From IMG/VR virus record IMGVR_UViG_3300032322_000182, positions 1-31,269 of that record: a stretch of DNA of 31,269 nucleotides; one strand, given 5' to 3'. The position numbers and the translations under genes were made by a program. How positions within the stretch are numbered: position 1 is the stretch's first letter; each line of letters opens with the position of its first letter. The DNA comes from a virus. Below the pieces are notes generated by a model. That model saw only the letters and a program-made list of their open reading frames with translations, was not told where the DNA came from and searched no databases. Below are positions 14,917-27,824 of the stretch, in pieces.

Positions 14917-16119
14917 CTACTTAGCAGCGATTGATGAACCTGATGTGATTCGGAATAGTGCCTCATCACGGTAAACTGCAAAGCCAAGTACGCCGTACCA
15001 ACCCATTGGGCGGAAGCGCATCAACTTATCAGTTACGTTACCAATAACTACGTGTGGTTCTTCTGCTACGGCTTCCGCCATTGCCTGTGCACCACAAACG
15101 ATTGTGTCAAAGACACGTGTTACTGGAGTTACAGTTACTGTTGCTCCAACTGTTACTGCTGCAGTGTTTGCTGTATCAACTGTAATAGTTGTTGTTGAAC
15201 CACTTGTTGCAATAGCAGTAATCTTTGCAGCAGATGCAATACCTGTTGCAGCAATTTTGTCGCCAACTTCGGCGCGAGATGCAATAACAGATGATGATGC
15301 AACACCAATAGTAAATCCTGCTGATGTTCCCGCTACTGTTGCTGTTGTTGTTGCCAATGCTGACTGGTCTGCACCTGTCTTAGCATTGAACAAACGTGAT
15401 GACTCTACGAAGAACGCGCCTTCGTACTCACCAATTTCTCCAGCCCAAATCTTGCTTGAATTTTCAGCAGACTGTGAGTTTGGATAGCGCCATCCCAGGT
15501 CGCCTGTTTCGGCACGAAGGTCGTGTGAAACTTCTGGGTGAATACCTGTCCAGTATGCATTTCCGCGACGGCCCTTAGCCTTGTTAGAACGCAACTTTGC
15601 TACAGCACGACGAAGGTCTGCTGAATCAAGAGTATCTGCTGCATCAATTGTTGCAGTAGATGTTGCATTACCTGCAAAGATGTTGTTTGTACCTGAGCGT
15701 AGAGTTGTCATTGCAACCTTGTCGATAGAATCTGCAAGGTTATATGCAATAATGTTAGCAATTGCTGGGTCTACATCTGCAAGTGAGAAGAGTTCCAATG
15801 CGCGAGTTACTAGAACTGCGTTACCGTACTCATTAAGTGTTACTGTGACAGAGGTTGGTGTTGTCAGTGCTACTGCATCTGGGTCAACTGTCTCTGTTAG
15901 TGTTCCTGTTACTGCATCAAGGTCAACGTACTTCTGTAGAACTACTGTTGAACCTGGGATTGCTTGACGTGCAGGACGCTTATCTGCGACAGAACGAATT
16001 AGGGGTTCTGAACGGAGAGCGAACTCTAGAAGGCGGTCATACGCCTTCTGTACGAGGCCTGCACCGCCAACTGTACCACCGAACGAACCGCTCGAGGTAT
16101 CTGTAAATGCGTTAGGCAT
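14917..16119 (-). CDS. major capsid protein, N4-gp56 type
   Basis: A 400-residue protein matching the N4-gp56/P22-like branch of HK97-fold capsid proteins. Visible features are the N-terminal helix LVQKAYDRLLEFALRSEPLIR, the turn RPARQAIPGSTVVLQKY, the strand NEYGNAVLVTR, the helix NIIAYNLADSIDKVAMTTL, the strand NAYWTGIHPEVSHDLR and the end RPMGWYGVLGFAVYRDEALFRIT. AAGGAG (16130-16135) precedes ATG by 10 bases. Residues about 248-333 are an extra Ala/Thr/Val-rich beta region interrupting the normal path between ESSRLF and VFDTIVCGAQA. The gene follows the scaffold gene directly. Confidence 0.88.
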   Translation of the reverse strand: MPNAFTDTSSGSFGGTVGGAGLVQKAYDRLLEFALRSEPLIRSVADKRPARQAIPGSTVVLQKYVDLDAVTGTLTETVDPDAVALTTPTSVTVTLNEYGNAVLVTRALELFSLADVDPAIANIIAYNLADSIDKVAMTTLRSGTNNIFAGNATSTATIDAADTLDSADLRRAVAKLRSNKAKGRRGNAYWTGIHPEVSHDLRAETGDLGWRYPNSQSAENSSKIWAGEIGEYEGAFFVESSRLFNAKTGADQSALATTTATVAGTSAGFTIGVASSSVIASRAEVGDKIAATGIASAAKITAIATSGSTTTITVDTANTAAVTVGATVTVTPVTRVFDTIVCGAQAMAEAVAEEPHVVIGNVTDKLMRFRPMGWYGVLGFAVYRDEALFRITSGSSIAAK

Positions 16120-16151: not shown

Positions 16152-16625
16152 TTATTGTTGTGATTGAAGAAAAGCAATAAAATCTTCAGCGCTCTCAAAA
16201 TTGCCATTTAGTCGAGCGTTCATATCATTTGCTTTATCTGGCGAAATACCCTGCTGCGTCACAATATCTTGCTGGCGCAATGCCGCAAGATTGACTTCAT
16301 CATTATTAGATTTCGGCTCATATCCAATTAAATCTCCATTGTCAGATAGCCAATTATTAATTGACTCTTCATTAACTTCGGATATATCTTTTAGAATTAA
16401 CCGTGCTGCTTTGGTATTTACGCCCTTCTTTTCTAGGACTTCCTTAAGTGTCGCCTCACGCTGCGCCTTAGAGAATATCTCAAGTTGCTCAGTAAGTTCC
16501 TTAATACGTTTTTCATCTGCACGCTTGGCTTTGCGTAACTTTTTAAGTAAGTCACTACCATCCAATGGTGCTTCTGTTTCTGTATCTAGGTCGTCATCTT
16601 CTTCATCCCAGTAGTTGTTGCTCAT
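16152..16625 (-). CDS. capsid scaffolding protein
   Basis: A 157-residue acidic, largely helical protein: acidic N-terminus (NNYWDEEDDDLDTE), a predicted coiled coil (about residues 26-65, LLKKLRKAKRADEKRIKELTEQL) and a helical C-terminal part with QGISPDKANDMNARLNG. This composition and its position immediately before the major capsid gene are typical for phage scaffolding proteins, which guide prohead assembly and are then removed or cleaved. A protease candidate is encoded upstream at 25494-26066. No sequence motif is unique to scaffold proteins, so the call rests on position and composition. Confidence 0.75.
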   Translation of the reverse strand: MSNNYWDEEDDDLDTETEAPLDGSDLLKKLRKAKRADEKRIKELTEQLEIFSKAQREATLKEVLEKKGVNTKAARLILKDISEVNEESINNWLSDNGDLIGYEPKSNNDEVNLAALRQQDIVTQQGISPDKANDMNARLNGNFESAEDFIAFLQSQQ

Positions 16626-17977: not shown

Positions 17978-19692
17978 TAGCCCATGAATCCAAACGACTT
18001 AAGTATGGTGTTAGCAAAATCAGCAGCAGTATTACGTGCTTCATCTGTTTGCCGCCATAGTGGGTTTGCTTGCATTTGTCTTGAAAACTCTGCAGTACTC
18101 ATTAGTCCGCCATCTCTAGTAAGTGCCATCTGTACATCTTTGTCATTGAAAGCATCAGTAATTGGAATACCTAGTTTTCTTGACTTAATTAATGCATACT
18201 GGTCAGCAATGTCTTTAACATTTCCACCGTTAGTAATATGGTCCTTAAGATTGCCATACATAGTTAGTGCATTAAGACGTAAACGTTCTGTTTGTTTTTG
18301 TATAGCATCTTTCTCTGTACCACCAGCAATAACAAAAGCAAGTGCTTCTCCTGCTGTTAGTGGTTGTCCATACTCTGCTCCAGCCTTTTGCAAGGCTGCT
18401 ATCTGTATAGCAACTTGACTGCCTTTAGCAGACTTAAGTAATGCTCCTGCGTCTGTACCCTCAAGGGCTTTAATAACAATAGCGTTCTGAGAGTTCTGGC
18501 GTTCTGCTGCAGTAAAGGCTGCGCCCTTACGAGTAGACTTAGTTATCTTTCCAGTTGAATCACGGGTTGTAACAGTTTCAACAGCAGACTTTTTTTCCCG
18601 CTCATTAATATCTTTAAAGTATGCTTCTTTTTCTTCTTGTGTTGCTGGTCTACCTATAGCATCAATTAAGTAATCATTGATTTCAGTATAAGCATCGCCT
18701 GCTGTAGTAAGAATTATATCTGTATCTTTAAAGGTTCCAGCCTTACTTGCTGGCAATCCTGTTCCAGCCCCGCCCTTAGCAGAGTTAAACCAAGAAGAAA
18801 AAGGAACTTGCTTAGCACCTTCAATTTGAATTTTAGTTGCAGCATCAAATGTATATTTAGCAATTAAATTATCAAGACCAAACAACCAGTCGTCTTGTTC
18901 TAGTTGTTTTTTTGTAATCCAGGTACGATTAACTAATTCTCTTTTTAAAGCATCTAGTTGTCCAGGCTGTGAATAGTTCTTAAGAAAAGCCTCACGTGCT
19001 GAAATAATACTTTTATACTGGTTAATAGTTGTTGAGCCATCAGCGTTTTTTGTATCAACAAAATAGATACGCTCTCCATTAAGAATAACATTACCAGAAG
19101 ATTCAATTGCATAACCCTTAAGTCTGTCTTCTGCTACATCTATAACACCGCCATCTTCAAGAGGTGCTGGTGTTTCTACAGTTTTATTTTCAGGTCGAAT
19201 TATTCCCTTGGGTGCTGGCGGTAATGGTTTAACTTTTGCACCTGCATTTTTAGCAGCAGTCTGAGCATCATATGCAGCCTGTACTGCTGCTTCATACTGA
19301 GCCATACCACGTGAAGGAATAAGTGCTTCTGCTTTTTTAAGGTCAGTAAGTGATTTCTCATATGCATCAAGAGCGCCTTGCGCACCCTTTTGCTTTTCGC
19401 TTGTACCTTTAGCGCGGTTAAGTTCTAAGCGTGCAGCGTTTTTTGCATCTTGTGCTCGCTTATATGCAAGAGAAGCAGCATCATATTGTTTCTTAATAGC
19501 ATTAAAATCTTTTATATTAAAGTTACGTATACTGCCTGGTTTTGCATCATTCTTTTCTTTACTATCTAAAGCAAGTAAATACTTTTGTTCTAAACCACCA
19601 CGCCCCGCAGTACCATTAAGGATGTCATAGGTACGGCGTGCTTCTTCTGAAGCATCAAAGAAGGCTTTTTCTAAACCTTTAATGTCAGCCAT
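17977..19692 (-). CDS. putative internal virion protein with coiled coils, 571 aa
   Basis: A 571-residue protein with a long charged helical N-terminus (about residues 1-160: alternating Lys/Ala/Glu, with AYKRAQDAKNAARLELNRAK and a KAEALI segment) predicted to form coiled coils. The middle contains a small beta domain (GNVILNGERIYFVDTKNADGS), and the C-terminal half is again helical, with a DITDAFND-like acidic turn. No enzymatic motif recognised. It overlaps by one base with the 1703-residue gene and the 410-residue gene, so the three are co-translated. An internal core or ejection role is inferred. Confidence 0.5.
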   Translation of the reverse strand: MADIKGLEKAFFDASEEARRTYDILNGTAGRGGLEQKYLLALDSKEKNDAKPGSIRNFNIKDFNAIKKQYDAASLAYKRAQDAKNAARLELNRAKGTSEKQKGAQGALDAYEKSLTDLKKAEALIPSRGMAQYEAAVQAAYDAQTAAKNAGAKVKPLPPAPKGIIRPENKTVETPAPLEDGGVIDVAEDRLKGYAIESSGNVILNGERIYFVDTKNADGSTTINQYKSIISAREAFLKNYSQPGQLDALKRELVNRTWITKKQLEQDDWLFGLDNLIAKYTFDAATKIQIEGAKQVPFSSWFNSAKGGAGTGLPASKAGTFKDTDIILTTAGDAYTEINDYLIDAIGRPATQEEKEAYFKDINEREKKSAVETVTTRDSTGKITKSTRKGAAFTAAERQNSQNAIVIKALEGTDAGALLKSAKGSQVAIQIAALQKAGAEYGQPLTAGEALAFVIAGGTEKDAIQKQTERLRLNALTMYGNLKDHITNGGNVKDIADQYALIKSRKLGIPITDAFNDKDVQMALTRDGGLMSTAEFSRQMQANPLWRQTDEARNTAADFANTILKSFGFMG

Positions 19693-22600
19693 TACTTTAA
19701 CTCCTTATATACATAGTATGATTCGCGTGAATAAAATCCAAGTATTGATTTAAATATTGCACGGTTGGCTTCTGTTACATATAAGTCGCCTACCATTAAT
19801 TCGTTTAGATTAGCCTCTATTTGTTCTTTTCTTTCTCGCTTAAGTTGTGCAATGTTTTCAACATTCTTTAACTCTGGGTCAGTAGAGAAAGCAACAAACT
19901 CTCGTACCATCTTAATTGCCATCATTAATTTCTGGCGTGTGGCTGGTCTAACATCAGTATTAGGGTTTGAAATTAATTGCTCAAGACTATTAAGCATTAC
20001 AGATTCATTACCAATTTCATTACCAGAACCAATAAGTTCTGAGTTAAGCAATGGGTTGTTAGCCTTTAATGCAGCACGTTGCTGCTCTGCTGCTTTAATA
20101 ACATTGGCTCGTAGTTCTGGGTCTGACAAATTGCTAAGAATATCTTTTTGCTGACGAGCAATGTCATAATACTTTTGCTTATCCTCTGCTACCTGTATAT
20201 CTGTGTAGTAGTCTTCAAGACTCTTGCTTTCAATAAGGCCTGCTGCTTTAATCCAGTTATAAGTACCAGCATTAAAGTCACCAATCTGTGGTGCAAAAAT
20301 GTAGGCAACCTCACCATAAGTCTTAATTAAGTCAGCGTTTTTAATGCCCCAGTTCTTTAACTTATCTGTGTTCTTAATAAGAACGCTAGTCTGCTTATCC
20401 TCACGGGCAACTGTATAGATAAGTTTGCCTGGATTCTTACCAATGTATGTAGCAAGTGCTACCTCGTATGGGTCCGAAATGTCTCCATTATTAACAGCAG
20501 TTATGCCATTAAGAATGTCAAAGAACTCTGAGCGCAAAGTAGTAATACCAGTGTCTTTAATATAGTCAGGGATTCCTACAGACTCCATAGTTGTAGGTGC
20601 AACTGGCGATAACAAACCTAGGAAGTGGCGCATAAACAATACGTTATGTGCTGAGATACGAATGTTCTTTAGGTATTCAGACTTCTCTTCATCTGTAGCA
20701 TTTGCTGTAATACCTATTCCGTTGGCTGCATTGTAGGCAATAGCCTGCTGTGCAGCGGTTACTTCTTGTCTAGACTTTTCATCAAATCCCAACATACCCC
20801 AGACACGCTGTAAAGATGAAGGAACAACAGCGCGGAATATATCAACATTGTCACCAATGTTACCTAGTGCAAAAGTATCAATGCTTTCACCTAGTTGCTG
20901 TGAGTATGGCTGTATTGCACCACCAACAAATGGAATTTTTCCTGGAACTACACCAAGGATATTCTTTACAGCAATAACTCCTAGTCCTGCAATAGGACCA
21001 GACAAGGTAGGAAGACCAGCATCCTGCGAGAATGATGGGTTAACCATTCTTAGTTTAAATGTAAACTCATTAAACAATGGCTGGCTGTATCCAGTATTAC
21101 CTGTTAGCGCACGAAACGCACCATCTGTAGCCTTGTAGATAATGTTATCCATAGGCATTACTACATATGGCTCACCTTCGGCATCGTTAAAGATAGCGCC
21201 ACTTGATTCAAGTCCTACGTTAACTAAACGCAAACGATACAACGTGCGTGGTGCTACATCCTTTAAACGATAGATACGGCGATAGAAATCCTCAGTTGCT
21301 CTATAGTAACGACCAACAGTACGCGCACTAAATGCAAAGTTAGAACGTATCTTTGGGTTATCAGCAAACTTTAGAATAGTATCTGCTGCTTCACGCACCG
21401 CTAATTCAGTAAAACGCTTTTCGGCTATAGCCTTATACTTGTCTTCAACAGCATCAATCTGTTTTTGAGTAGCACCAGCAAAAGGACCCATCTCACGTGC
21501 TACCTGTTGACGAACAAACTCTTTTTCAATACCAGCATACTTTCTGCGCAATTGTGCATATGTAACCATAACTGCTGGTTGACGGAATAAACCAGTTACT
21601 TGTTGGTCCATCCAGTCCATCATAGTATTTCCGTAGCGTCTAAATACAGACTCTACATCAAAGTCACCAAAGGCTATTTCAGTATTGATAGGTCCACTAA
21701 TACGGAATCCTTGGCTAGCCTCTTGAAATTCATCTAAAGGAATACGTGCAACTGCTGCGTTCCAAGTAGGAGTGCGACCAGATTCTGCACTCATCTTAAC
21801 TAGTTGCCCGTAACTATTCTTAACTACATCTAATAATCCCTGATTAAACTTGTTAGCATCACCATGGAATGTTTCATACATATCAGTAAACATACGGAAT
21901 AACTGACCACGGGCAATTTGCTCATCATCTAGTCCACGACCACGGGCTTGAACTGTGTAGGCTGTGCGTTCTAAAAATGCACCAACAGATAGATTGTCTT
22001 GAATCTGCCAAGTATTAGTTAACGGTTCAAATTTAAAACCAATTTTTTCCATACCAGCATCAAGTGCTAGTTCCATCATTTCTTTACCAGTGCGTGGGTC
22101 TACCTCGCCTGGCTTTAATGCATTGTATCTAAAAAATATTTCTGCTGGGTTAAGTGTAACTTCATCGGTTAATTTGGCCTTGTTACCAGCCATCATCTTA
22201 AACCATTTTTCAAAGTGCGCTAATGCAACTTCGCGTTCTGTTAGCATAGCCGTATCAATAGTACGGGTTCCTTTACCCATCTTAATACCTAATGCATCAA
22301 AAGCCATATCAAGCATAGATGGTGTAATAACTGATGCAACAATCTCCTCGCCATAGCGACCAGAGATACCACTGCTAGCAACAAGAGAAGCAGCCATTGA
22401 GTTAAGTGAATCAGGTGAATGTACAAAGGCTTGCATTAAATAACCAGCAGTTTCAGGGTCAACATAACGACCATACATTTGTGAAACAGCAGCAGATATT
22501 GCTTGACGTTTTTCTAAACTTGTTAAAAGAACAACATCAACTTCTAAGTCATCTGCTTTGTTTTGTAAAATTGTTTGTCTATCTAAAATTGACAGTGCTT

Positions 22601-24803
22601 CTTCGTGTGAGTAGCGCGGTTGTTTACCCATACGCATAGGTAAATCTGCGCGTGGCGCAAACTTTAAAGTTTTTTGAATACTGCGACGAATAGGACCACT
22701 AGCAGACTTAGAACCAGTAGCAGCACGGGACATATTTCCTAGTCTTAATCCTTCTAACGATGCAAATTTGCGCAAATCTTTAGTAGGAGCAGACAATAAA
22801 TACATAGTTGCTTCATCAATAGCAGAACGAACACCTAAACGTGGGAACAAGGTTAAGATAGACCATGCATCAACTAGTCTTTTTGAAAAATTACCCTGTG
22901 TTGCTCCACCAATTGCAGTAATAATGTTTTTCTTAGATTTAATTTCCCATACAGTTGACCCGATTGTGTCATAAGGTAGTGGGCCAATAGCCCATGTAGT
23001 CTGATAAGGCTGCAATGGACCTTCAGTATTAACAAAAAATCCTGATTCAGATTCACGAACAGTATTTGCTGGTGCAAACTTAACATGGTCTGGGTTAATT
23101 GCTAGGTCGCGCTTAGTAGCAAAGCCCGCTTTATCACCATACTTGTCCTGTAGTGTCTTAAGAATTAAATCTTCACCCTTAACACTGCCACCTAGTCCCA
23201 TTGAGTACATAGTTGCAGCATCTAGATTACGCAAAATAACTACTTGCTCATCAGCAGTTGAGTCTAAAAAGCGAACAGTTAACGCTTGAGCCATATCTTT
23301 TGGCAAAATCTGACGAGCACGGGCTGTAAAGTTAGAAGCAGTATCAATAGCATTAACACCAACTCGTACTTCTAGTCCTTGTGGCGAACGTGCCGCTAAA
23401 CGACCAATTCTTTTCCAACCCTTAATTTCTTCATTAGCCTTTAATACTACGGACATGTCAGAGTTAGGGTTAACTAAACGCTGTAGTGAATCTTCTGCAT
23501 TAAGAAATGCAGCACTAATTGGTTCAAGAGCAGCATTTCTTTCAGCGGCATTACGAGACATGTTATTAAAAACATTGTCAAGTGAACGTGTTAGTGCATC
23601 TGAAAATAAACGAGTTTGACGTGCTACTACTACGCCATTGCGCATGTAAGTTAAACCATCAACTCGTCCTGCTAGCAATAGATTTAAATTTCCAGCGTTT
23701 TCAAAGTATGCTTGTGCTGATGCAGCATCAAATACTTCTCCGTCAACTAAAGCCTTAATTGCACTTTGGTCGTTATACCCAGGAAAGTTTTTTGCAATTT
23801 CATCTAGTGCAATTGACTTTGCACCTGGAGTTCCACTTGAGTCTTTTACCTTTTTAAGTGCAGGTCCTAATCCATCTTGCCATAATGAATAAACTAATGG
23901 ATTTTTAAATGTATCTGCAACAGCCTTTTCTACTGAAACACCATTGTTAATTGCCTCAGTAAGTGATGTAGCAATACGCTCACCTTTAGTTACACCCTTA
24001 CTTAGTCCACCTGTCATCCAGGTAAGTGGGTCTACAGCAAGTTGATAAATAAAATCTATAACACCAGATACGTTTTTTGTTTTACCGCTTACACCACTTG
24101 ATGGTGGCTTGCGGTCAAGCATACGAGCAATATCTCGCCCTGGAGAAATCTGTGCATACTTTACGCCATCTAATACTTCTTGAAAAGCCTCTGGTTCATC
24201 GTATGCTCTTTTAATTGAGTTAAGAAGATTAGCGTCTACTTTACCAAAGTCTTGAACAATCTCGCCAGGAGTTTTACCTGCAAGTAATCCTTTAGCAACC
24301 ATAACATCAAACTCACCAAAGTAACTGGTCGCTTCCGCCAAAGCCTTGTCATCATATTGATTCTTTCCGTCCCATGCATCTGTCCATGTTTTCATTGAAA
24401 ACAAATCTTCGCCCTGTGCAACCTGTCGTGCAATTTTATAAGGTTGATTAATTAAGCGATTATACTGCCCACCTAGTTTAAATAAACCAATTAATGGTGA
24501 TGCAACTATTGTTCCGATAGTTTTAGCAACACCAAATAAACGGTCTGACACATCAGGTGCATCCTGCATGTAGTCAGCATCTTTAAACATAAACTTTAGT
24601 TGGTCTTGAAATTGAGGCTCTAAACGGTTGTATTCTTTACGAGCCATTTCTGTACCAAGTTTAACTAGTTCACGATGCTTTTTAATCGTGTAACTCATCT
24701 GCTCTATTTGGTTTTTTTCTACGCCAGTTAGGTTTGCAGTTTTTGCAGCAGCATAAATATTAGGTGATACTTCAGCAACAATCGGTTTAATGTACTGGGC
24801 CAT
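19692..24803 (-). CDS. giant putative internal virion / ejection protein, 1703 aa
   Basis: The largest gene of the window. The protein is mostly helical and polar, with two more hydrophobic stretches (about residues 93-108, TIGTIVASPLIGLF, and 1268-1290, GPIAGLGVIAVKNILGVVPG) that might insert in membranes. I found no lysozyme or transglycosylase motif and no clear RNA-polymerase motif of the N4 type. Size and the two companion genes resemble the internal core proteins of podoviruses, which exit first and build a trans-envelope DNA channel. Against a tape-measure protein are its position before the capsid genes and the lack of long regular heptads. Function is inferred only. Confidence 0.5.
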   Translation of the reverse strand: MAQYIKPIVAEVSPNIYAAAKTANLTGVEKNQIEQMSYTIKKHRELVKLGTEMARKEYNRLEPQFQDQLKFMFKDADYMQDAPDVSDRLFGVAKTIGTIVASPLIGLFKLGGQYNRLINQPYKIARQVAQGEDLFSMKTWTDAWDGKNQYDDKALAEATSYFGEFDVMVAKGLLAGKTPGEIVQDFGKVDANLLNSIKRAYDEPEAFQEVLDGVKYAQISPGRDIARMLDRKPPSSGVSGKTKNVSGVIDFIYQLAVDPLTWMTGGLSKGVTKGERIATSLTEAINNGVSVEKAVADTFKNPLVYSLWQDGLGPALKKVKDSSGTPGAKSIALDEIAKNFPGYNDQSAIKALVDGEVFDAASAQAYFENAGNLNLLLAGRVDGLTYMRNGVVVARQTRLFSDALTRSLDNVFNNMSRNAAERNAALEPISAAFLNAEDSLQRLVNPNSDMSVVLKANEEIKGWKRIGRLAARSPQGLEVRVGVNAIDTASNFTARARQILPKDMAQALTVRFLDSTADEQVVILRNLDAATMYSMGLGGSVKGEDLILKTLQDKYGDKAGFATKRDLAINPDHVKFAPANTVRESESGFFVNTEGPLQPYQTTWAIGPLPYDTIGSTVWEIKSKKNIITAIGGATQGNFSKRLVDAWSILTLFPRLGVRSAIDEATMYLLSAPTKDLRKFASLEGLRLGNMSRAATGSKSASGPIRRSIQKTLKFAPRADLPMRMGKQPRYSHEEALSILDRQTILQNKADDLEVDVVLLTSLEKRQAISAAVSQMYGRYVDPETAGYLMQAFVHSPDSLNSMAASLVASSGISGRYGEEIVASVITPSMLDMAFDALGIKMGKGTRTIDTAMLTEREVALAHFEKWFKMMAGNKAKLTDEVTLNPAEIFFRYNALKPGEVDPRTGKEMMELALDAGMEKIGFKFEPLTNTWQIQDNLSVGAFLERTAYTVQARGRGLDDEQIARGQLFRMFTDMYETFHGDANKFNQGLLDVVKNSYGQLVKMSAESGRTPTWNAAVARIPLDEFQEASQGFRISGPINTEIAFGDFDVESVFRRYGNTMMDWMDQQVTGLFRQPAVMVTYAQLRRKYAGIEKEFVRQQVAREMGPFAGATQKQIDAVEDKYKAIAEKRFTELAVREAADTILKFADNPKIRSNFAFSARTVGRYYRATEDFYRRIYRLKDVAPRTLYRLRLVNVGLESSGAIFNDAEGEPYVVMPMDNIIYKATDGAFRALTGNTGYSQPLFNEFTFKLRMVNPSFSQDAGLPTLSGPIAGLGVIAVKNILGVVPGKIPFVGGAIQPYSQQLGESIDTFALGNIGDNVDIFRAVVPSSLQRVWGMLGFDEKSRQEVTAAQQAIAYNAANGIGITANATDEEKSEYLKNIRISAHNVLFMRHFLGLLSPVAPTTMESVGIPDYIKDTGITTLRSEFFDILNGITAVNNGDISDPYEVALATYIGKNPGKLIYTVAREDKQTSVLIKNTDKLKNWGIKNADLIKTYGEVAYIFAPQIGDFNAGTYNWIKAAGLIESKSLEDYYTDIQVAEDKQKYYDIARQQKDILSNLSDPELRANVIKAAEQQRAALKANNPLLNSELIGSGNEIGNESVMLNSLEQLISNPNTDVRPATRQKLMMAIKMVREFVAFSTDPELKNVENIAQLKRERKEQIEANLNELMVGDLYVTEANRAIFKSILGFYSRESYYVYKELK

Positions 24804-25234
24804 TAAAAGTCTCTATCAAGAATTGTTCTGTAAATTAACTCTGCATCTCCTGATGAATCAAACTGTGCTAAATACTTTAAAGTGTCAATAAGTGTTGGTG
24901 TTTCATTAGGCAAACCACGCATTGCCTCTGAACCTGGACCAGGACCCATGTCAATGCCAGATGTAATTGGTTCATCAGGACGCATAGTTGGTGCACCTAA
25001 AGGTGTTGGCATTTGCACTTGAGGCATCTGTGGCATTGAAGCGCCTTGCATAGGAGCACTTGTCTGTTGCTCCATAGTTGCTTGACCTTCTCCGTATGGC
25101 AAGCCAGCAATGTATCTAGCAGGTTGTGTAGCACGGCCTGATTGACCTGCACCACCAGTTGCTGAAACATTTGCTGGATTATTTTGAGGGGCTGTTGGAC
25201 GATACCCACCACGATTTTCTGGGGCAGTTGTCAT
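24803..25234 (-). CDS. Pro/Gln/Met-rich low-complexity protein, 143 aa
   Basis: A 143-residue protein. The first 105 residues are disordered and rich in Pro, Gln, Gly, Ala and Met (PTAPQNNPANVS, MPQMPQVQMPTPLG). The last 35 residues form a likely helix (TLIDTLKYLAQFDSSGDAELIYRTIL). GGAGG lies about 9 bases before the ATG, which overlaps the preceding gene by ATGA. The design of a disordered tether with a short ordered end could suit a linker or chaperone for the giant protein encoded next. No family recognised. Confidence 0.5.
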   Translation of the reverse strand: MTTAPENRGGYRPTAPQNNPANVSATGGAGQSGRATQPARYIAGLPYGEGQATMEQQTSAPMQGASMPQMPQVQMPTPLGAPTMRPDEPITSGIDMGPGPGSEAMRGLPNETPTLIDTLKYLAQFDSSGDAELIYRTILDRDF

Positions 25235-25497
25235 TCTTCATCCTCCTCTTCTTCAACGGTTTCATGTTTAGTGCCAAGTACTTCACTGTTATACTCTTGT
25301 GCCATCTTCATCATCCCATACGCGTTCCATGGTGTCATGGCTTCGCTAACTTCTGTGTGTAAATATCGGGTCCCTTCGTAGTCTGCCCACTCGGTTATCA
25401 TTAACCAGTTGGTGCAGATAAACTCAGTCCCCTTCGTATCTTCTTCAAGAAGAATTTTTAATGCTTCTTCTACTTTATTTCTAAACTCTTTACTCAT
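25231..25497 (-). CDS. conserved hypothetical protein, 88 aa
   Basis: An 88-residue protein starting MSKEFRNKVEEALKILLEE. I chose ATG 25497 because it overlaps the Ntn-hydrolase stop (ATGA) and starts an amphipathic helix; the longer frame from 25548 would overlap that gene by 55 bases and has no ribosome binding site. The core has a beta strand GTEFICTNWLMITEWADYEG and RYLHTEVSEAMTPWNAYGMMKMA, a pattern I recognise from actinobacterial phages without known function. The C-terminus is strongly acidic (EEEEDEE). Confidence 0.6.
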   Translation of the reverse strand: MSKEFRNKVEEALKILLEEDTKGTEFICTNWLMITEWADYEGTRYLHTEVSEAMTPWNAYGMMKMAQEYNSEVLGTKHETVEEEEDEE

Positions 25498-26066
25498 TTT
25501 GCGTTTTGTATCTTTACTACAATTGGCTCGCCAGTATGTATATCCCAACGAGATGCAATTTTAATTGCCATTCTAATATCTACTTCCGCCAATTTTGGCG
25601 TAGTTTGTTTTCTAGAATTAGCAAAGGCCTCAATAGCACCGAGAGCAATATCAGCACCACTGCCAGAACAGTAGATACCACGAACATCGCGGTCCCAAGA
25701 ATAGTCTTCAAAGATAGGATAAATAACTCCGCGAACGACGACAAGAAATTGCGAATCATGTGCTGCTGCATCCCCATCTTCTTTCATGTCATAACCAGAA
25801 TCAATAAACAATTTACGCATTGCTGGTATAAAAGTCTGTGTCATAAATACATCTAAGTCATCAGTAGCCCGTGGCTTAGGTGCTTTCCATCCAAACTGCA
25901 AAATGTTAGAACCACGACTAGCACCAGAACCTGCAATTAAAATTCCGTTGTTTTCAATAATCTTATGTGTTGCTAGTTCCATAAAGCGACCATCATCACC
26001 AGAAGAACGAGAGTCACAGCCAACGGCTGCCCAACCATTTCCCTGAATTGCTACAAGCGTTGTCAT
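25494..26066 (-). CDS. proteasome-beta/HslV-like Ntn hydrolase
   Basis: A 190-residue protein with the hallmarks of proteasome beta subunits. After Met1, Thr2-Thr3 would be exposed by Met removal; counting Thr2 as 1, an Asp is at 17 (in GCDSRSS, the canonical D17) and a Lys at 34 (ATHKI, close to the canonical K33). Further family features are GILIAGSGASRG, the strand-turn GIYCSGSGADIALGAIEAF and the end SRWDIHTGEPIVVKI. AAGGAGGG at 26071-26078 is a strong ribosome binding site. No HslU/ATPase partner is encoded here. Its place between portal and scaffold genes is where phages encode the prohead protease, so it may process scaffold or capsid proteins; attack on host proteins is an alternative. 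Confidence 0.8.
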   Translation of the reverse strand: MTTLVAIQGNGWAAVGCDSRSSGDDGRFMELATHKIIENNGILIAGSGASRGSNILQFGWKAPKPRATDDLDVFMTQTFIPAMRKLFIDSGYDMKEDGDAAAHDSQFLVVVRGVIYPIFEDYSWDRDVRGIYCSGSGADIALGAIEAFANSRKQTTPKLAEVDIRMAIKIASRWDIHTGEPIVVKIQNAK

Positions 26067-26081: not shown

Positions 26082-27824
26082 TTAGCGTCGCGTAACTGTC
26101 CTTGCTGATGCTGATGCTTCTCCACCTGATGTTAAACTTGCTAAAAGACTTTGTAGTTGTGGTGGTTGCTGTGGTTCTAAAGAAGCGCCTCCTGCTGGCG
26201 CGGCGGGAACAGGGGACGGTTGCTCAACCTGTGCACCAGCAGGAGGTAATTCTGGTGCAAAGACTTCTTCAACAGCATCCTCTACTGGAATACCACGTTG
26301 ACGAGCCTTAATAACTCCAGCAATTTTCTTAACAATGGCTGACGGGTCCCCACCTTGCACAGCCATTTGTGGAATGGCTTGTGTGTATGCTTGTAAAGAA
26401 CTAACCAGTGCTTTACGCATATTTTCTATTTCAATCTTTTCTTGTTCTTGCGTTACGTTAATACCAAATGGTAGTTCACGCATTGCTAGGTCTGTAGAGA
26501 TTAATCCACCACCTAATGCTTGCAACATAAAGATAAGTCCCTGTGCTGGGTTAAGACCAGCAAGCATGCCGTATCTAACATCGGCAGTAAAGTCACTCTT
26601 AATATCTTTGCCTGGCTTGTAGGTAAGGCTGTAAGGAGAACCTGCATCTACGCCACGGATTGTCTTTTCAAAATCAAAAAACTTTTCATCTACTTCAAAA
26701 CATACAGAAATAACATCTCGTAATGCAGAAGCAAAAATAGCCTGAGCAGATTTAACCTGTGTATCAAAGCCACCCATAAGTGCTTGAACACCTTGACCAG
26801 TAATAATGGAAGCATCAATGTTTCCAGTACGTCCCTCTGGGTAACGTGTTCCTGTTCGTAGTTCCTGCTGTAACAAAGCCTGCTCAGTAAATGCACCAGG
26901 TGGAATGTTAAGGTCTACGCGTCTTACACCTGCTGGGTTTGCTGTGCGAATAATTGCATCGCCACCCAGTTCAAGTTCTGTTACATCTGTTGGTAGAACA
27001 ATTGGAGCCTGTACTGACTTCTCTGCTGCTTCCATCGCAAGTAATGCGAATCTGTTACGAAGCAACTGAATACCTAATACATCATCAAACTGTCCACGCA
27101 TCTCACCATCAACTGATGGACGCTTAGCAACAACAACCATCATCTTACCAAGCGGGTTAACCGCCTTAGATAAAATTAAATTGTTTTTTTCTGGAACAAA
27201 CAACATAGATTGTTCTGCATCGTAATAACGGATTATCTCTAGTTGAGCGTTAAGGTCTCCCTTGTACATTTCTGGACCAAGAAGTTCTCTTGCATACTCA
27301 GGAAACTCTGAAGCAAGTTCCCCAACGCTTAAGTAATAACGCTTAGCAAAGGCAATACAGCGTCCGTAGCGGTCAAATTCTGGGTAAGCCCCCACTGGAT
27401 TTTCTACGCGGATACGCGGTAGCCCTGCTTCTTCGTCTAATTCAATAATGAAAGGGACGAAACCAAATGTGATGTACATGTCTGCGCCTGTGTACATCTG
27501 TACTTGTAAATCTGAGTTAGCAAAATAATTAGTAGCAATACGGGTACGTGTGTCTGCAAACTTGCGAGCACGGTCGTTTGCTTGGTTAGCAGCAGAACAG
27601 TTAACAGATGGCAATGGAGCCATTACCTCTGATAGGTCACGGGCTACAATGTCAATAAAGTTAGCAACTACGTTAGCGTCAACACCCTGCGGAAAGAAGT
27701 CTGGGTAAACACTTGCTATCTGTCCTTTACGGACAGCAAGAACATCTTGCTGGCGTGCATCACGCTCTGCAGCACGGTCTTTAAGAGATGCAACCCGTGC
27801 TGAAATCTGCTCTATCGAAAGCAT
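26082..27824 (-). CDS. portal protein
   Basis: A 580-residue protein. The N-terminal half carries the portal-type helical wing (VDANVVANFIDIVARDLSEVM) and strands GFVPFIIELDEEAGLPRIRVENPVGAYPEFDRYGRC, followed by helices characteristic of the clip/stem region (LGIQLLRNRFALLAMEAAEKSVQAPIVL). The C-terminal 60 residues are a Pro/Ala/Gln-rich disordered tail. A TAGGAAA site that overlaps the terminase stop lies 4-5 bases before the ATG. It forms the dodecameric DNA gateway at one capsid vertex and docks the terminase. Position directly after the large terminase supports the call. Confidence 0.82.
   Translation of the reverse strand: MLSIEQISARVASLKDRAAERDARQQDVLAVRKGQIASVYPDFFPQGVDANVVANFIDIVARDLSEVMAPLPSVNCSAANQANDRARKFADTRTRIATNYFANSDLQVQMYTGADMYITFGFVPFIIELDEEAGLPRIRVENPVGAYPEFDRYGRCIAFAKRYYLSVGELASEFPEYARELLGPEMYKGDLNAQLEIIRYYDAEQSMLFVPEKNNLILSKAVNPLGKMMVVVAKRPSVDGEMRGQFDDVLGIQLLRNRFALLAMEAAEKSVQAPIVLPTDVTELELGGDAIIRTANPAGVRRVDLNIPPGAFTEQALLQQELRTGTRYPEGRTGNIDASIITGQGVQALMGGFDTQVKSAQAIFASALRDVISVCFEVDEKFFDFEKTIRGVDAGSPYSLTYKPGKDIKSDFTADVRYGMLAGLNPAQGLIFMLQALGGGLISTDLAMRELPFGINVTQEQEKIEIENMRKALVSSLQAYTQAIPQMAVQGGDPSAIVKKIAGVIKARQRGIPVEDAVEEVFAPELPPAGAQVEQPSPVPAAPAGGASLEPQQPPQLQSLLASLTSGGEASASARTVTRR

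Follow-up and report, generated by a model that had tools for sequence, protein, structure and literature searches.

What a proteasome-like Ntn hydrolase does for a phage that encodes it directly after its portal gene is the question raised by the window, the 31,269-nucleotide stretch of viral DNA analysed here (IMG/VR record IMGVR_UViG_3300032322_000182, positions 1 to 31,269). A first-pass annotation placed the gene in the prohead-protease position and proposed that it serves either capsid maturation or proteolysis inside the host without an ATPase partner. The reading preferred here, with a probability of about 0.6, is that it encodes an exchangeable, probably ATP-independent predicted peptidase barrel which acts in the infected cell and not in capsid maturation. 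No function is known for phage proteasome homologues; the family of the window phage provides a tractable context for them in hosts that are the most abundant freshwater actinobacteria.

The Ntn gene lies at 25494..26066 as first annotated and can now be assigned to the minus strand, which had not been given. It encodes 190 aa and carries a type A allele. Its ATG start codon (26064–26066) has an AAGGAGG ribosome site close 5′ and is separated by a 15 bp gap from the stop of the portal gene (26082..27824, minus; phrog_104, E=6.5e-29), the left flank of the exchangeable slot. Its stop overlaps the start of orf88 (25231..25497, minus) in an ATGA, an arrangement also seen in relatives. orf88 begins at 25497 and encodes a small protein of 88 aa with an acidic tail; it accompanies A and C alleles, and is missing with B alleles and in some of A. 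The right flank of the slot is the Pro-rich orf143 (24803..25234, minus), which is retained with and without the Ntn gene.

The head genes further along the minus strand encode a scaffold-like protein (16152..16625; phrog_7813), which has weak head-scaffold matches and is common to Ntn-plus and Ntn-minus phages, and the major capsid protein (MCP; 14917..16119; phrog_1357, E=1.1e-75). The earlier statement that the Ntn gene lies between the portal and scaffold genes is accurate as to order, but the scaffold gene is ~9 kb away with five genes between. The same interval holds, at 19692–24803, a 1703-aa protein for which Pfam gave nothing above cut-off, a candidate internal or ejection protein. 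Relatives and Streptomyces phages likewise have a large, fast-diverging protein at this place.

The catalytic residues of a proteasome-type enzyme are present. Residue 2 (codon 26061..26063, minus), which would become the catalytic Thr1 once Met is removed, is Thr in 266/267 full-length homologue ORFs and Ser in the other, and residue 18 is Asp in 266/267. In a 21-member alignment reaching down to 22% identity, M1, D18, K35, G135, and G137 are invariant. Asp18 (26013..26015, minus) corresponds to proteasome Asp17 and Lys35 (25962..25964, minus) to proteasome Lys33, while Gly135-Ser136-Gly137 (25656..25664, minus) forms the GSG/Ser129 motif. The first-pass annotation had listed a Thr nucleophile at the expected N-terminus, Asp17, a Lys near position 33, and a motif of which GSG is part; each was found, with the Lys as the equivalent of Lys33/34.

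Family-level searches agree with these residues. All 21 aligned members match PHROG 1040 (peptidase HslV family), the window protein with E=7.6e-20, and the family profile matches solved structures of HslV (7.5e-16), BPH (4.5e-13), and the 20S beta subunit (4.5e-9). The PHROG and HslV values place the assignment to the Ntn family beyond chance. As a single sequence the protein scores 20.0 bits with Pfam Proteasome, under the 22.4 gathering cut-off, and 15.7 bits with the NCBIfam HslV equivalog, for which the cut-off is 137. The comparison with HslV and 20S beta structures suggested earlier was run on an AlphaFold2 (AF2) model (pLDDT 85.6, pTM 0.83), which confidently adopts the proteasome-type Ntn fold of two beta sheets between helix layers. 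Foldseek against the PDB returned 1041 matches at E<=0.001, headed by BPH (5ovs, E=2.6e-11) with HslV next. VIA-align (Z 18–19.6) placed residue 2 of the model on residue 1 of active 20S beta, BPH, and HslV chains. Helices 50–58 and 71–89 are N-terminal to the GSG region, and residues 98–103, several of them acidic, are modelled at low confidence. A dN/dS of ~0.07 against relatives of low divergence indicates that the gene is under strong purifying selection.

Judged by sequence and model, the Ntn protein is a proteasome homologue of the HslV/BPH-like kind (group I, PMC8665760) with an intact active site and no propeptide, and the original call of a proteasome-like Ntn hydrolase stands on fold, catalytic residues, and family. 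Narrower assignments were rejected. It is not strictly a 20S beta subunit, as it falls under the Pfam cut-off and HslV and BPH are nearer; nor is it a canonical HslV, being far under the equivalog score, with no HslU-type AAA_2 domain in ten Ntn-bearing phage records. PPH membership was rejected as PPH have ~140 residues without helix H2, while the window protein has 190 aa and a helix 2. Proteasome homologues also include the ligase connectase (PMC8665760), and the protein could in principle perform ligase, transpeptidase, or other connectase-like Ntn chemistry instead of proteolysis. This is very improbable, as HslV and BPH are closest by both sequence and fold and the model lacks the connectase signature, a helical segment inserted between strands 3 and 4.

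By portal and MCP, the closest phage records are OX376640 and OX376641, two unannotated 39-kb genomes. They are those of the Planktophila phages LanE43AprE7 and AprF5, which were isolated with Ca. Planktophila as host (PMC10202952). E7 and F5, cultured on Ca. Planktophila LanE-43, have a divergent Ntn copy, 27–28% identical to that of the window with portals 72–74% identical. The next-nearest are Streptomyces phages of the Beephvirinae (portal 44%, MCP ~55% identical). Hundreds of viral contigs are related to the window phage, and scans of bacterial-genome contigs with the Ntn alignment and with the portal gave no matches. Plasmid-borne Ntn relatives occur in Rhizobium, Sinorhizobium, Mesorhizobium, Paraburkholderia, Streptomyces, and Bacillus. 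A literature search found no paper naming the Ntn gene in relatives of the window phage.

Gene order was the ground for suspecting a prohead threonine protease, which would assemble in the procapsid and remove scaffold or trim the MCP. A protease of this kind would be expected beside portal, scaffold, or MCP genes, and the Ntn gene adjoins the portal gene, with the scaffold 9 kb off. It follows the portal in 248/274 fetched ORFs of the window phage family, so that the post-portal slot is favoured in this family, although fetching with both Ntn and portal queries biases and duplicates the count. The first-pass annotation also saw no canonical prohead protease, and this was confirmed: Peptidase_S78 is absent from six Ntn-less contigs, from the Ntn-plus contigs tested, and from both Streptomyces phages. 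That absence lends some support to a prohead role, and also fits a phage that needs no such protease.

Presence and absence of the gene speak against the prohead role. Phages that share their capsid genes should keep a prohead protease or replace it by another, and for the Ntn gene neither was found. Among 152 portal-bearing loci, the Ntn gene is next in 102 and no Ntn is next in 43; in the latter, whose portals are 84–88% identical, the slot holds a single ORF of 83–89 aa instead. Sister phages without the Ntn gene have portals 86–89% identical to that of the window, and in six Ntn-less genomes the full-length MCPs are 77–84% and the scaffolds 63–71% identical to those of the window. The scaffold and MCP values fall in the range of Ntn-plus genomes (MCP 63–90%, scaffold 58–90%), and gene maps show a late gene order otherwise broadly alike in both groups. 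A sensitive whole-record profile search, with positive controls detected in 9/9, found no Ntn in nine sister contigs (30–41 kb, some Ntn-less contigs possibly being incomplete) or in the Streptomyces phages Immanuel3 and FlowerPower. A Pfam scan of the 46 ORFs of one Ntn-less genome, G003, found no protease family, and coverage of prohead protease families other than S78 extended to some of the records. As these sisters have closely similar head genes and no recognised substitute protease, the capsid type of the window phage appears, from these genome comparisons, to be made without the Ntn gene.

MCP N-termini start at the same conserved segment in Ntn-plus phages, Ntn-less phages, and Streptomyces relatives, and the window MCP has no N-terminal extension relative to its Ntn-less relatives. 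Nothing in this shared start points to an N-terminal domain that could be removed, an argument made at the level of sequence. The MCP structure model has a pLDDT of 38, and the MCP profile found no solved relative.

Relocation of the gene is further evidence against capsid maturation. At 12 loci a B-type Ntn heads the early (replication) gene cluster, ahead of PD-(D/E)XK exonuclease, WhiB, and DnaB-like genes, and beyond the endolysin/holin genes where the contig includes these. The early-cluster copies are 85–89% identical to portal-slot copies and lie within the B type on the Ntn tree (support 81/93, not a starred branch). One tip labelled as a portal copy in the tree run, L172, is identical to an early copy and its position is uncertain. 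The early-slot contigs are <15 kb, with their own portal slot out of view. A strong terminator-like hairpin of 12–13 pairs lies 5′ of the early-cluster Ntn in 3/3 loci examined; sigma-70-like sites were not enriched.

In phages of other hosts, all nine annotated homologues inspected lie outside the head module. In Arthrobacter phage Pitbull and Psychrobacter phage D'Alembert the gene directly after the portal is annotated as a capsid/head maturation protease, and the Ntn gene is elsewhere. On presence and absence, relocation, and this co-occurrence, the prohead-protease role was rejected and is regarded as highly unlikely. The 'prohead-protease position' of the first-pass annotation, once compared with neighbouring actinophages, is better described as an exchangeable post-portal slot, and its suggestion of a use in capsid maturation finds no support.

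A protease encoded among late head genes could instead be virion-associated or co-ejected, processing the 1703-aa neighbour or acting on the host just after entry. Gene order makes late co-transcription with the portal and the giant protein likely. However, Ntn-less phages retain a homologous giant protein (about 20–55% identical), and the usual packaging route would not be open to copies in the early operon. This alternative is therefore improbable, although less so than a prohead role.

The preferred reading of an exchangeable enzyme acting in the infected cell draws on the pattern of its alleles. In L093–L098 the portals are 98% identical and the Ntn proteins just 69–70%. Conversely, in L030–L043 the portals are 76–79% identical to that of the window and the Ntn proteins 91–93%, a sequence pattern pointing to recent Ntn transfer between divergent phages into the same slot. 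When five allele types and absence are placed on the portal tree, 12 label changes are needed compared with a minimum of 5, and the portal lineage of the window is nested with eleven Ntn-less representatives. Ntn alleles exchanged at the slot are 28–70% identical between related phages. From these comparisons the Ntn gene is an exchangeable cassette, with divergent alleles swapped or lost at the post-portal slot.

Frequent exchange of divergent alleles at one slot would also suit a counter-defence factor that destroys or inhibits an antiphage protein of the host, or acts as a competitor of the host proteasome system, with allele swaps reflecting an arms race. Placement in an early operon and the high gene flux in cultured relatives (PMC10202952) are consistent with such a role. 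However, the within-type dN/dS is low (~0.07), which is not what fast adaptive change within alleles would leave. As a dedicated function, counter-defence is rather unlikely.

The more general proposal of a peptidase in the infected cell can be set out as a mechanism. After Met removal, the subunits would assemble into a double-ring barrel by analogy with BPH and HslV. The expectation that the enzyme has no ATPase partner was borne out as far as the phage itself is concerned: no HslU-type AAA_2 domain was found in 10 Ntn-bearing phage records, with controls found in 14/14 genomes. The barrel may cut peptides or loosely folded proteins, with no AAA+ unfoldase dedicated to it. In the window phage the Ntn protein is probably translated off the late head transcript, while in the relocated variant it is probably expressed early, at the head of the early gene cluster; both timings derive from gene order and hairpins. 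Its likely job would be proteolysis that aids the phage in the infected cell, through turnover of host proteins or their neutralisation, and we infer that the enzyme is most likely used to break down host proteins or in counter-defence. A more specific version, in which the unfoldase-free barrel is an exchangeable counter-defence or host-takeover protease whose alleles are swapped after the portal and which is also deployable from an early operon, is put forward tentatively.

The family itself is already catalogued as PHROG 1040, and can be compared with the AAH and PPH (PMC8665760). PHROG 1040 members, such as Geobacillus virus E3 gp65, Tenacibaculum phage pT24, and Pumpernickel 135, have the same catalytic residues as the window protein. 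Of the known members, those inspected have replication, nucleotide-metabolism, or accessory genes around them, whereas the window Ntn is in a head operon. The main survey reported phage copies (PPH, AAH) and found the genomic context of the proteasome homologues uninformative (PMC8665760). What is new here is a conserved actinophage lineage, including the cultured Planktophila phages E7 and F5, with a defined slot, gene-minus sisters, and allele swapping.

AAH are group I and HslV/BPH-like, as is the window protein, and the spread of its plasmid-borne relatives is much like that of AAH. On this taxonomic basis AAH membership is plausible. The 2021 survey found no actinobacteria-specific phage with an AAH (PMC8665760), and the window phage family would fill this gap if its Ntn is one. 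BPH (5ovs/5ovt/5ovu) resembles the window protein in having no propeptide and an elongated loop after helix 2 (residues 98–103 of the window protein), and is a 14-mer with no known unfoldase (PMC5777263). The two are about 18% identical; BPH is bacterial and its tetradecamer experimental, whereas the window protein is known by sequence and model. HslV (ClpQ) is the best sequence match to the window family among solved structures. Prohead proteases (S78 and similar) share the post-portal position but belong to another fold family; the window Ntn has no S78 match and is dispensable in sister phages. The locus corrects the tempting but wrong step from gene position to prohead protease, and its natural gene-plus and gene-minus sister genomes and fixed-slot swaps allow comparison.

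Three minor observations were made in the relatives. In L303 the Ntn gene is split into two frames (1002–1547), representing a pseudogene or a sequencing error. The 83–89 aa slot protein of Ntn-less phages (L130:11737–11988 and similar) has a basic start and an acidic end. The MCP encoded at 14917–16119 in the window occurs in two lengths in the phage family, ~400 and 315–317 aa, a difference that apparently reflects an ~85-aa insertion at residues about 245–335 and does not track Ntn presence.
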